From contig NZ_CAMZOF010000001.1 of assembly GCF_947331435.1 (NCBI RefSeq), positions 558,001 to 622,000 on the forward strand: a DNA stretch of 64,000 nt, read 5' to 3'. This document shows, one piece after another, positions 35,371 to 39,317 of this stretch. Under the pieces are notes generated by a model. It ran no database searches and was not told where the DNA came from. It saw only the letters and a list, made by a program, of their open reading frames with translations. The translations under genes were made by a program, and so were the position numbers. How positions within the stretch are numbered: position 1 is the stretch's first letter; every line of letters starts with the position of its first letter. The stretch comes from Pelagibius sp. Alg239-R121 (GTDB lineage Bacteria; Pseudomonadota; Alphaproteobacteria; Kiloniellales; Kiloniellaceae).

Positions 35371-35961
35371 CTAATCGAAGTCTTGCGCCAGCGCCGCACG
35401 GACGGCTTCCGGCAAGACGGCCATGTGGCTATAGAACTCGTGCTTGAAGCCCAGGATCACCTGGTTGCCTTCGGACCGGAACTTGGCGACCTGGTCGGCG
35501 GTGAAAGGAAAGTGGATGAACTGTACTGCCGAGGCCTTGCCGTCGGCCGTGGTCCGATCAACATCCTCTTCGGGAACGCCTATCACGGTCTCACCGTCAA
35601 ACTGGAAGAAGGCCGTCTCCTCGACCCCGCCCAACTTTGAGAGAAAGGTCGCCCGGCGCACCGGTTCGTCGATTTCGAACATCACCGTGGCGACCAGTTC
35701 GCTGCCCTGGGGGATCAGTGGATTATAAGCCTCCAGCTCGTCCTTAAGCTGCTCGTCGCCGCCCTTTTCGATGTAGAGCATCTCCTGAACCTGAGACCAC
35801 ATGGTCTCGTAGTTCTCGAAATAAAAAGTGCAGACCGGGCCGACCTCAAGACGGCGGTGGCGCTTCACGTCGACCAGTGCTTTGCGTCGAGACTTGCGGT
35901 CGGCGGCATAAACCTCCATAGGCAGGATATCGTCAGCCGTAATCATGCGCTTTTCCGCCAT
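35371..35961 (-). CDS. DUF3501 family protein
   Basis: 196 residues, soluble. It shows the family pattern: MITADDILPMEVYAADRKSRRKALVDVKRHRRLEVGP, then FYFENYETMWSQVQEMLYIEKGG and VQFIHFPFT. The biochemical function of DUF3501 is not known to me. In many proteobacteria it is encoded next to rubrerythrin and the HdrD/GlpC-like Fe-S protein, exactly as here, so it probably takes part in the same peroxide- or redox-related process. AGGAGA lies upstream of ATG 35961. It is 68 bases after the Fe-S protein gene. Confidence 0.88.
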   Translation of the reverse strand: MAEKRMITADDILPMEVYAADRKSRRKALVDVKRHRRLEVGPVCTFYFENYETMWSQVQEMLYIEKGGDEQLKDELEAYNPLIPQGSELVATVMFEIDEPVRRATFLSKLGGVEETAFFQFDGETVIGVPEEDVDRTTADGKASAVQFIHFPFTADQVAKFRSEGNQVILGFKHEFYSHMAVLPEAVRAALAQDFD

Positions 35962-36029
35962 TGCGGTTTCTCCTGAAACTGACATTCATCTTCTCAATTT
36001 ACACGATAGGGAAAATCCTATCGCAGAGG

Positions 36030-37370
36030 TTACAAACCGTAGGCGCGCGCCATCAGCTCGATCGGATGCTGGGCTTCCTCGATCTGTGGCTTATCATCCA
36101 TCTTCAGGCGTTCGATACCCTGTAGGATATGGGTTCCGGCAAGTGGGCACTCGGAGGCAATGTAGGTCTTGCCGCTGCTGGCCGCCTGGCGGGCCGCGGT
36201 GCGCCCGACCTTGATAGCCTTTTCGAAATTGTCCTTCATACAGCCCCAGCTGCCGCCATGGCCCGAGCAACGCTCGATGACCTTGATGTCGGCTTCAGGC
36301 ACAAACCGCAGCATCTCGGCGGCCTTGGCACCCATGTTCTGCGCCCGCGCGTGGCATGCCATATGCAGCGCGACACCGCCATCCAATGAAGAGAGCCCAT
36401 CGGCCAAACCCTCTTTCTTGGCAATATCGACCACGTACTCGGTGATGTCCGAGGTTGACGCAGAAAGCTTCTTTACGCTCTCGTCATCCGGCAGGATCAA
36501 GGGCCATTCGAACTTTAGCATCAGGGCGCAGGATGGCGTCAGCGCAACAATGTCGTAGCCCTTATCGATCCAGGTCGACATCTCGGCGGCCACACGCTTC
36601 GCGGATTCGGCCACCTTGGCGATATCACCCTGCTCGAACTGCGGCATGCCGCAGCAGGACGGATAGACCACTTCGGTCTCGACGCCGTTGTGCGCCAGTA
36701 CGGCGCGGGCGGATTCCCCAATGGCCGGATTGTTGTAGTTCACGAAACAGGTGGCATAGAGCGCCACCTTGCGGCCGTAAGCCGGCGCATCCTTGTTGGG
36801 CGCAGTGCCATCGCTCTTGGCACGCAGGGCAAAGGTCTTGCCATGGAACTTCGGCAACGCTGCCTCTTTGTCGATACCCATCGTCTTTTCCAAGATCGGA
36901 CGGGTCAGACTGTTTCCGGTGTCGCTGGCCCAATTCGCCAAGCCGGGCATCATGCCGGCGAGTTTGCCGTTGCGGTCCGTCTTGGTCAGCTCCATGAGCG
37001 CCTTGTCTGCCTTGCCGGCTTTTAGTTCGGCGGCGCGGTAGCGAAGCATGAGGTGGGGGAAATCGAGATTGAATTCGTGCGGCGGAACGTAGGGACAGGA
37101 GACCATGAAACACATGTCGCAGAGCGTGCAGGCGTCTACGACCGGCTTATAGTCAGCAACATCGACCGTATCCAGTTCTCCGCTTTCCGAATCATCGATC
37201 AGGTCAAAGAGGATCGGAAAGGATTCGCAGAGATTGAAACAGCGCCGACAGCCGTGACAGATGTCGAATACGCGCTCCAGCTCGGCGTTGATCTTGTCGA
37301 AATCATAAAAATCGGGATCGTTCCAGTCGATCGCGTAGCGGACCGGTGCGCCCAAACCACCTTCGCTCAT
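36030..37370 (-). CDS. HdrD/GlpC-like Fe-S oxidoreductase with two CCG domains
   Basis: 446 residues, cytoplasmic or membrane-associated electron-transfer protein. Two 4Fe-4S clusters near the N-terminus: CHGCRRCFNLC (38-48) and CTLCDMCFMVSCP (81-93). Two CCG (cysteine-rich) domains follow, with CCGMPQFEQGD and CSGHGGSWGCMKDNF, as in HdrB/HdrD and GlpC. It probably passes electrons to rubrerythrin, judging by the cluster. GAGGG lies before ATG 37370; an upstream frame extension to 37475 is not supported by a ribosome site. A 441-base gap separates it from rubrerythrin. Confidence 0.9.
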   Translation of the reverse strand: MSEGGLGAPVRYAIDWNDPDFYDFDKINAELERVFDICHGCRRCFNLCESFPILFDLIDDSESGELDTVDVADYKPVVDACTLCDMCFMVSCPYVPPHEFNLDFPHLMLRYRAAELKAGKADKALMELTKTDRNGKLAGMMPGLANWASDTGNSLTRPILEKTMGIDKEAALPKFHGKTFALRAKSDGTAPNKDAPAYGRKVALYATCFVNYNNPAIGESARAVLAHNGVETEVVYPSCCGMPQFEQGDIAKVAESAKRVAAEMSTWIDKGYDIVALTPSCALMLKFEWPLILPDDESVKKLSASTSDITEYVVDIAKKEGLADGLSSLDGGVALHMACHARAQNMGAKAAEMLRFVPEADIKVIERCSGHGGSWGCMKDNFEKAIKVGRTAARQAASSGKTYIASECPLAGTHILQGIERLKMDDKPQIEEAQHPIELMARAYGL

Positions 37371-37811
37371 GGATATTGCCCTCTCAGCACTCTCAGGTCT
37401 CGCCCTCGCGATGTCGTCAACAGGGGGCAGACGCGCAGCGTAGCTCTGATTCGAAGTGACCCATCGATCAGGCACTCGTCAAGCTGCGCAGATCGTCCCG
37501 GCACGGCGCCTGCCAGGACATCCCCGCGCCCGGCAACAGCAGCCAGCAAATAAAGCCGGCGATCCCTTCAGATTGGAAAATAACGGGTTCGCGGGATCGA
37601 TCCGAAGAACGATCCTGCGAACCTTATGCGGTACTCAGCGAAAATAATGCGCCGCAGCTGCTCCGGTACCTTCCCAACACGGCACCACTCCACCGACAGA
37701 AGGGAATTCCACCACATAATCCGCGGAACAAGCACGCCCGTCACAAACCGGAACACCGGGAAGAAGATTTTCCTTCCCCGAAATCCGGCGATACAGCGGA
37801 CGCAAAGCGCC
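37371..37811. other. Gap between rubrerythrin and the HdrD-like gene
   Basis: 441 bases on the transcribed minus-strand path from rbr to the Fe-S protein gene. It holds a strong hairpin at 37586-37623 (separate entry) and a smaller one near 37757-37779 (CGGGAAG / CTTCCCCG). I see no coding sequence. The gap is long for an operon, and the hairpins may set unequal expression of rbr and the downstream genes. Confidence 0.5.
37586..37623 (-). terminator. Strong hairpin after rubrerythrin, possible terminator or attenuator
   Basis: GGTTCGCGGGATCG (37586-37599) and CGATCCTGCGAACC (37610-37623) form a 14-base stem with a single G.U pair and a 10-base loop. On the minus strand it is followed by CGTTATTTTCC, a moderate U tract. 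It lies ~190 bases after the rubrerythrin stop and ~215 bases before the next gene. Confidence 0.5.
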
Positions 37812-38225
37812 TTACATCGTGTCGAGTGCTTTCTGGAATCGGCCGGCGTGGCTCTTTTCAGCCTTCGCCAGAGTCTCAAACCAGTCTGCAATCTCGTCGA
37901 AACCTTCTTCACGGGCCGTGCGGGCCATACCCGGATACATGTCCGTGTATTCGTGAGTTTCGCCGGCGATGGCAGCTTTCAGGTTCAATGACGTTTCACC
38001 AATTGGCTCACCGGTAGCGGGATCGCCAACTTCCTCGAGGAACTGAAGATGGCCATGGGCATGACCGGTCTCGCCCTCTGCAGTCGAACGGAACACGGAA
38101 GCGACATCGTTGTAGCCTTCGACGTCAGCTTTTTGTGCGAAATAGAGATAGCGACGATTTGCCTGGCTTTCGCCGGCAAAGGCGTCTTTGAGGTTACCTT
38201 CGGTCTTTGAACCCTTTAGCGACAT
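37812..38225 (-). CDS. rbr: Rubrerythrin-family (erythrin) protein without rubredoxin domain
   Basis: 137-residue diiron protein, likely an NAD(P)H-linked peroxidase that reduces H2O2. The four-helix bundle ligands are visible: Glu in [15 protein letters not shown], Glu/His in [15 protein letters not shown], Glu in [11 protein letters not shown] and Glu/His in [10 protein letters not shown]. The usual C-terminal rubredoxin domain (two CxxC pairs) is absent, so electrons must come from a partner, plausibly the HdrD-like protein. An Irr-type operator lies ~180 bases upstream. Confidence 0.92.
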
Positions 38226-38404
38226 AGTATTCTCCCTCCAGAATGCGGGTTACGGATGCGACTGCCTCAGATCACAGCCGACTCCACGGTCATAGCATTA
38301 ATAACTAGCCGTGGTCCGAGCCAAGCATGACCGCCCTTGTTTTAAAGGGTGCCGATCAGACTCGATGAGGGTTAATACGACCTTCAAACGGTCATGTCAA
38401 ACCG

Positions 38405-38421
38405 TTTAGAATAGTTCTAGA
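38405..38421 (-). promoter_or_regulatory. Candidate Irr-binding site (ICE-type) upstream of rubrerythrin
   Basis: TTTAGAA (38405-38411), TAG, TTCTAGA (38415-38421): an inverted repeat differing at one position from the symmetric form TTTAGAA-N3-TTCTAAA that Irr recognises in rhizobia. It lies directly between irr and rubrerythrin. Confidence 0.65.
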
Positions 38422-38540: not shown

Positions 38541-38963
38541 CTAATCGTTCGCCGGGTTCAGGCGAATGATGACATCCACGCGCGAGACTTTCATGCCCTC
38601 GGGCGCATCAGGCAGCGCGGTCAGAACCACCTCGTCGCAATCGACATCCTGCAGCTCACCTGAACCTTCCATATAGAAATGGTGGTGATCATCCATATTG
38701 GTGTCGAAATAGGACCGTCCCGCCTCCACGACCACTTCGCGTAACAATCCGGCATCGTTGAACTGATGTAGAGTGTTGTAGACCGTGGCCAGGGAAACTC
38801 TGACTTCCGCACCCATGGCCTCGGCGTGAAGCTGCTCGGCCGTGAAGTGCCGGTTTCCACCTTCGAACAACAGCTTTGCCAGCGCCAGGCGCTGACGTGT
38901 CGGACGCAATCCGGCGGTCTTAAGCTGATCGATCAGGGCGCTATAGGGGCGTTTTGTGGTCAT
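38541..38963 (-). CDS. irr: Irr, Fur-family iron/heme response regulator
   Basis: 140-residue Fur-family regulator that senses heme status and represses or activates iron-use genes. DNA-binding wing: GLRPTRQRLALAKLLFEGGNRHFTAEQLH ... RVSLATVYNTLHQFNDAGLL. The HxH-type heme site is DDHHHFYMEG (HHH 93-95), diagnostic of Irr rather than Fur or PerR; the CxxC zinc motifs of other Fur proteins are missing. It lacks the N-terminal GCP heme motif of Bradyrhizobium Irr. Divergent from fabA, the well-known alphaproteobacterial order. ATG 38963; a GTG six codons upstream is possible. Confidence 0.92.
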   Translation of the reverse strand: MTTKRPYSALIDQLKTAGLRPTRQRLALAKLLFEGGNRHFTAEQLHAEAMGAEVRVSLATVYNTLHQFNDAGLLREVVVEAGRSYFDTNMDDHHHFYMEGSGELQDVDCDEVVLTALPDAPEGMKVSRVDVIIRLNPAND

Positions 38964-39317
38964 AAGTCTCAATATACGCACATCCGTACAAAATTAAAGA
39001 CTTTAGAACAGTAATCTGTTGTTTTTTTTGGAATGACTATAATCTGCAGCGACTCAAACCCCGCCGAAGCAGGCTGCCATTGGGTACAAATACATCTAGT
39101 CACGACTTTTTGCGTTTTCCATTGGGTCCTTGAGTTTGTTATGGTTTTTCTGGTAATGCGCTGTGCTATAGTCCGCGTCTTGGCTTAGGGGGAACTGTCG
39201 GGAACGCACTCCTGGTCGCCGTAAAAGACGGAGTTCAGGATCACCAAAAAAACGCCCTGAAAATCTACGTGATCCCCCGAGTTTGCGTAAAAGTACTAGT
39301 TTGTTGGATTGAGGCCT
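38964..39317. other. Divergent irr-fabA promoter region
   Basis: 354 bases. It carries a TTTAGAA Irr half-site at 39002-39008 without a matching second half, TATAAT at 39038-39043 and TATAGT at 39167-39172 as possible -10 boxes without convincing -35 partners, and a 9-base direct repeat CCATTGGGT at 39077 and 39119. No gene is seen. Confidence 0.5.

Follow-up and report, generated by a model that had tools for sequence, protein, structure and literature searches.

Gene order and a conserved palindrome at the irr-rbr locus

The window, by which we mean the entire 64,000-nucleotide stretch of DNA that was analyzed, belongs to an 8.02-Mb genome of the Kiloniellaceae type and carries, in minus-strand order, irr, an Irr-type operator, rbr, a gene for a GlpC-like Fe-S protein, and a gene for a DUF3501 protein. 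Counted from its ATG, irr occupies positions 38541 to 38963 (the mechanical open reading frame begins at a GTG at 38981). Its product matches the Pfam FUR profile, passes two curated NCBIfam models (NF045678 IrrA, 217.9 bits, cut-off 150; NF045677, 194.6 bits, cut-off 170), and is 88 to 90% identical to the Irr proteins of Denitrobaculum tricleocarpae and two uncultured Kiloniellaceae. The rbr gene (37812 to 38225, minus strand) encodes a rubrerythrin-type protein of 137 amino acids with a ferritin-like diiron domain (Pfam Rubrerythrin PF02915, 107.7 bits). On the NCBIfam rubrerythrin model, it scored 138.4 bits and did not reach the cut-off of 200. The protein aligned to positions 3 to 143 of the 194 positions of the full rubrerythrin model and has no C-terminal rubredoxin domain. 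Together with rbr, the minus-strand genes for the GlpC-like Fe-S/CCG-domain protein (36030 to 37370; sub-cut-off scores on GlpC models, synteny with relatives) and the DUF3501 protein (35371 to 35985; profile match and synteny) form a conserved block at 35371 to 38225, and the GlpC-like protein possibly passes electrons to a rubrerythrin that lacks its own rubredoxin domain. The arrangement of irr, rbr, and the two downstream genes was kept in those rbr-bearing loci that were long enough to show it, and the short irr-operator-rbr block was also present in D. tricleocarpae R148 (L052). In Rhodobacterales loci, the fab-irr arrangement was retained and rbr was absent within the DNA examined.

The operator lies at 38405 to 38421 and reads TTTAGAATAGTTCTAGA, an ICE-like palindrome of the form TTTAGAA-TAG-TTCTAGA that deviates at 1 of 14 positions from TTTAGAA-N3-TTCTAAA, which we take to be the consensus of the Irr target (ICE). 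In the literature searched, we did not find these letters printed together with Irr terms. The original prediction had described an inverted repeat one base away from perfect, just after irr and about 180 bases before the rubrerythrin gene; coordinates and letters proved exact, and the measured distances were 119 nt past the irr stop codon and 179 nt ahead of the rbr start codon. A predicted rbr −35 element, TTGACA (38395 to 38400, minus strand), begins 4 nt downstream of the operator and is followed, after a 17-nt spacer, by a predicted −10 element, TATTAA (38372 to 38377, minus strand), so that the minus-strand promoter reads TCTAGAACTATTCTAAA-CGGT-TTGACA-17-TATTAA. This −10 element was not listed by a generic promoter scan that demanded T as the final −10 base. 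Transcription of rbr would be expected to start near 38365, which would place the operator centre near −48, touching the −35 element.

We then asked how well the palindrome is kept in the irr-rbr gap across relatives, a comparison that the original prediction had proposed. Our sample comprised 54 loci with adjoining irr and rbr genes, reduced to 50 distinct gaps, our own included, after four identical gaps were dropped; loci with irr and no rbr in the available DNA were left out, and the rbr loci used were those belonging to 30 of the 48 rbr matches, the ones with loci. The palindrome was present with at most 3 mismatches in 14 positions in 42 of the 50 gaps, compared with 1 of 50 for the reversed-motif control. 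The best match per gap had 1, 2, 3, 4, or 5 mismatches in 12, 19, 11, 7, and 1 gaps, respectively, so that 8 gaps showed 4 or 5 mismatches. The position relative to the promoter was nearly fixed: scored as the best pair of elements without a shuffled control, and leaving out the one gap with five mismatches, a TTGACA-like −35 element sat 3 or 4 nt past the operator in 47/49 gaps, and the spacer measured 17 nt in 39/49. We conclude that the operator is genuine and that relatives retain it at this promoter; the loss of the repeat in relatives with irr-rbr, which the original prediction would have taken as refutation, did not occur.

A class-wide scan for the exact operator followed by TTGAC returned 29 places in 28 of 385 genomes and none for the reversed control. 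According to tblastn searches on these loci, the next gene was rbr in 24 of the 28 genomes, katG in 2, and a catalase gene in 1, and 1 was left unassigned; irr stood directly upstream in 26 (the 24 with rbr and the 2 with katG). Within the class sample, neither our own genome nor any of the four further genomes from its order matched the strict composite pattern exactly. Several variants of the arrangement were seen. In L258 and L259, the gene that follows irr is katG in place of rbr, and this operator lies between the two genes. In genome G043, irr adjoins katG twice: a one-mismatch site lies between the two genes on contig C115, and no site with fewer than six mismatches was found on C181 (L149), where katG directly follows irr. 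Five loci from lineages represented by metagenome-assembled genomes (L057, L060, L065, L067, and L070) retained the left half-site (TTTAGAA or TTTAGAG), with a right half ending in TAAAAA or TAAAAG ahead of a retained −35 element, and the operator may have drifted in these lineages.

Matching sites at other peroxide-defense genes

To find further sites, we counted mismatches to the palindrome and to its reversed motif across the genome, a form of the genome scan suggested in the original prediction. With at most one mismatch, there were five sites in our own genome and none for the reversed motif; the irr-rbr operator was among these five best places, and the others precede a gene for a Dps-type protein, dps (two sites), and katG (two sites). 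The second refuting outcome named in the original prediction, a site ranking below random matches, was not seen in this mismatch count. A looser threshold of three mismatches gave no enrichment either in the window (2 found, 1.03 expected) or in the genome (142 sites, compared with 212 for the reversed control), and because of the latter comparison, this threshold is uninformative genome-wide. A degenerate pattern with at most two mismatches yielded 48 sites in our own genome and 27 in the control.

Across 58 genomes, comprising our own and its relatives, sites with at most one mismatch numbered 78, against 29 in the control, and 21 of those 29 control sites came from a single genus (g4). The exact sequence WTTAGAANNNTTCTAAW was more discriminating, with 41 sites versus 2 in the control. 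Thirty-six of the 41 precede peroxide genes: 6 rbr, 11 dps, 9 katG, 2 catalase genes (one of them a broken frame), 6 ahpC, and 2 genes for Prx5-like proteins of the Redoxin family. The remaining five (G035:C119:27861, G012:C19, G020:C50, G016:C97, and G036:C1:1083989) have no assigned target. For the ahpC sites found in genus g4, a different gene begins across the site from ahpC and could be the target instead. We also examined 400 nt upstream of the 30 best-match loci each for dps and katG. A site with at most three mismatches was present in 23/30 dps regions (control, 1/30) and in 16/30 katG regions (control, 0/30), leaving 7 and 14 regions, respectively, without a site at this threshold.

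Judged from these sites, the predicted gene set of the operator is of the PerR type and is wider than rbr. The original prediction had placed a peroxide-defense cluster under the heme/iron regulator Irr. Its Irr-type operator at irr-rbr stood, as a conserved element, and the link to peroxide is stronger than was then thought, since further genes share this operator: dps and katG in our own genome and, among relatives, the genes for catalase, AhpC, and Prx5-like proteins. In the literature searched, we found no description of an irr-rbr operator or of a dps/katG Irr regulon, although the operator may have been predicted earlier.

Other candidate targets were set aside. Own-genome sites with two mismatches before dusB-like, malate synthase-like, and cytochrome c-like genes (labels assigned by eye from the translations) and before an ArsP_2 exporter gene were weak and were not counted as targets. 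An ArsP_2 gene was likewise rejected as the target at L183, where the gene ends before the site and a broken catalase reading frame stands after it. At G000:C5:249121 in our own genome (L236), a catalase gene and an oxyR-like gene face each other with an ICE-like site, ATTAGAATGATTATAAT, between them, one mismatch from the degenerate pattern; this placement raises the possibility of a promoter shared by Irr and OxyR. At G000:C9:167020 (L015), ATTAAAATTATTCTAAA lies about 62 nt upstream of a gene for a 10TM metal exporter (PF11449), making a metal-export link to the Irr regulon possible. An exact ICE was also found near a small open reading frame with a weak match to EF-Tu domain 3 (L200; 25.5 bits, Pfam cut-off 27) and near a second frame that appears similar to it by eye (L201).

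Promoter geometry and the probable regulator

The reading we prefer, and consider reasonably likely, is that Irr represses the peroxide-defense genes through this operator and frees them when heme is sufficient or peroxide is present. The palindrome would be the operator of the rbr promoter, bound by Irr from the neighboring gene. Signal-free Irr would abut the −35 element on its upstream side and keep rbr expression down; dps and katG, and in relatives the catalase, ahpC, and Prx5-like genes, would be governed by Irr through the same operator. Plentiful heme or iron, or peroxide oxidizing a PerR-like metal site, would make Irr let go, and the iron-using defense enzymes would then be made. As the same operator stands before all these genes, Irr would thereby govern a PerR-type peroxide-defense regulon.

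The arrangement of operators and promoters at the other genes bears on the sign of control. The dps promoter of our own genome (TTGATA-17-TATATC) begins 5 nt past one operator, and a second operator lies just beyond the expected transcription start. At katG, two operators are spaced 26 to 27 nt apart, centre to centre, in our own genome and in L147, L148, L150, and L168; in L168, by eye, a promoter (TTGTTA-17-TATATG) runs through the first operator, and the second lies just past the −10 element. The own katG sites are located 270 to 296 nt before the ATG used, much farther out than those of some relatives (14 to 60 nt); this distance counts against our reading, as do the dps and katG regions that lack a site, the katG of L149 among them, and the eight irr-rbr gaps with 4 or 5 mismatches. 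Occlusion of the promoter is the simplest single account of this geometry, and we regard repression by Irr, rather than activation, as probable. Passages of a study on Rhodobacter sphaeroides map the ccpA transcription start some 40 nt past the Irr-box and give ccpA expression as 1.8-fold higher in an irr mutant under iron limitation (PMC3413700), and excerpts of a review describe Irr as a repressor or an activator depending on position (PMC7762939).

An unlikely alternative is that Irr activates rbr when iron is limiting: flush against the −35 element, it would recruit RNA polymerase as at ICE-activated genes. An operator centre near −48, with the −35 element 3 to 4 nt away in nearly all gaps, is a classical place for an activator, and direct activation is, in the same review excerpts, far commoner for Irr than for Fur and position-dependent (PMC7762939). 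Moreover, in the portions seen of a study on "Ca. Pelagibacter ubique" (SAR11), rbr transcripts rose 1.57-fold upon iron limitation (PMC2864753), a rise that opposes repression by iron-starved Irr only if the SAR11 rbr gene is an Irr target. Against activation, the rbr −35 element of our genome is near consensus, with a spacer of 17 nt, and needs no help. In several relatives, the katG promoter and the paired operators overlap by eye; in the genus, dps has its second operator just past the expected start, likewise by eye.

Very probably, Irr is the protein that recognizes the palindrome. We think it quite improbable that another regulator, either the Fur-like protein encoded just outside the window (G000:C1:623057) or OxyR, binds here with irr as a mere neighbor. 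Fur has been located on the Magnetospirillum katG promoter by ChIP, according to sections of PMC3251581, and the own-genome oxyR-like gene opposite the catalase gene has an ICE-like site beside it. However, the operator follows irr in 26/28 of the class-wide composite matches, including the two in which katG stands in place of rbr, and in the available text of PMC3413700, the target of Irr goes by the name ICE/Irr box. One residue also argues for Irr: Asn occupies the ATVYN position in 87/87 Irr proteins, whereas the Fur-like protein reads ATVYR. The residue at this position is a switch between PerR and Fur boxes. That the palindrome is a chance match without function is practically out of the question: matches with up to three mismatches are common in the genome and unenriched, but the conservation in 42/50 gaps and the controls of the exact, one-mismatch, and composite scans speak against it.

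The Fur family of our genome comprises four genes, namely, irr, one Fur-like gene, and two for which Zur was the best model; the latter three all fell below curated cut-offs and were placed partly by their neighbors. PerR was not seen among the four in a PerR-directed search of our own genome. An IrrA match over the cut-off was present in 56 of the 58 genomes, the exceptions being a genome of 77% completeness and another whose Irr is fragmented, and further IrrA matches in these genomes are, by score, probably Fur-like genes.

Irr as the proposed sensor and comparison with known systems

In the Irr of our genome, the HXH heme-binding motif is present (DDHHHFY), and both outer histidines are kept in 87/87 Irr proteins. 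The N-terminal Cys-Pro heme regulatory motif of the B. japonicum type was not found in the Irr of our genome; CP strings occurred in 2 of the 87 proteins (L068 and L113) and, by eye, probably precede the true start. Because the HXH-sensing Irr of the R. leguminosarum type is not known to have a Cys-Pro heme regulatory motif either, this absence leaves Irr membership intact. Heme sensing at HXH by that type of Irr is described in review excerpts.

In an alignment to Bacillus subtilis PerR (2fe3), all five ligands of the PerR regulatory site (H37, D85, H91, H93, and D104) matched in Irr, and all five were retained in 87/87 Irr proteins. Passages of PMC4700492, from which the ligand numbers are taken, state that B. 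japonicum Irr has these five residues too and is oxidized at that site. The Irr protein failed the PerR family models, scoring at most 74.5 bits against cut-offs of 180 to 250; though not classed as PerR, it may work like PerR. The question of release by heme seems to us evenly balanced, and direct release by peroxide falls somewhat short of that. A bolder version, put forward only tentatively and in our view rather unlikely, is that in Kiloniellales and other alphaproteobacteria that lack PerR, its place is taken by an Irr without a heme regulatory motif. Loaded with metal, such an Irr would repress rbr, dps, katG, catalase, and ahpCD until hydrogen peroxide turned it off directly by oxidizing its metal-site histidines; heme would provide a second input. 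In R. sphaeroides, manganese favored Irr-DNA complexes, according to passages of PMC3413700.

The closest parallels are the Irr-ICE control of blr7895 and bfr in Bradyrhizobium and that of mbfA and ccpA in R. sphaeroides, where, as here, Irr and an ICE/Irr-box are combined with iron-using genes that serve iron handling or peroxide defense. Unlike in those systems, the predicted target here is a soluble 137-amino-acid rubrerythrin encoded beside irr, together with dps and katG; relatives add catalase, ahpC, and Prx5-like genes. According to excerpts of PMC3413700 and PMC7762939, blr7895 is homologous to MbfA, which is rubrerythrin-like and also has a membrane exporter domain; in the former, the R. 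sphaeroides katE gene is not bound by Irr.

The regulon of PerR in Bacillus and its relatives contains catalase, Dps-type, and AhpC genes and, in some, rubrerythrin. The system described here resembles it in the gene set and in the five metal ligands of the sensor. It differs in that the protein is an Irr by family model (217.9 bits, compared with 74.5 or less for the PerR models) and in that the operator is TTTAGAA-N3-TTCTAAA, not the PerR box, which is a different sequence. Magnetospirillum katG offers a further comparison, likewise from the Alphaproteobacteria and with the same peroxide gene, but in the available portions of PMC3251581 and PMC12912731, the regulator named is Fur or OxyR, versus Irr as proposed here; the IrrB paper (Wang 2015) is cited in that literature. 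Irr is known as a heme/iron regulator. If a conserved operator ties it to most of the genes that PerR controls elsewhere, the regulation of this set in alphaproteobacteria without PerR would be accounted for, and the published likeness between the metal sites of Irr and PerR would become a testable in vivo role.

Finally, we examined the region upstream of irr. A TTTAGAA half-site is indeed present at 39002 to 39008 (plus strand), but the autoregulation that the original prediction had tentatively attached to it did not hold up: there is no full operator, and the best match upstream of irr in our own genome has four mismatches. Four genus members were examined, and all retained it as a half-site and nothing more; it is not general in the order. 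Of 90 distinct irr-upstream regions, 16 contained a site with at most three mismatches (control, 0/90), an excess that is due in part to a TTCCAA/TTCTAA element found 61 to 67 nt upstream of irr in 26 of 55 regions (L020 to L078) and mostly not a full palindrome. The window copy of this element, ATTATAGTCATTCCAAA, lies at 39027 to 39043 on the minus strand; the element may be bound by a different regulator or form part of a promoter.
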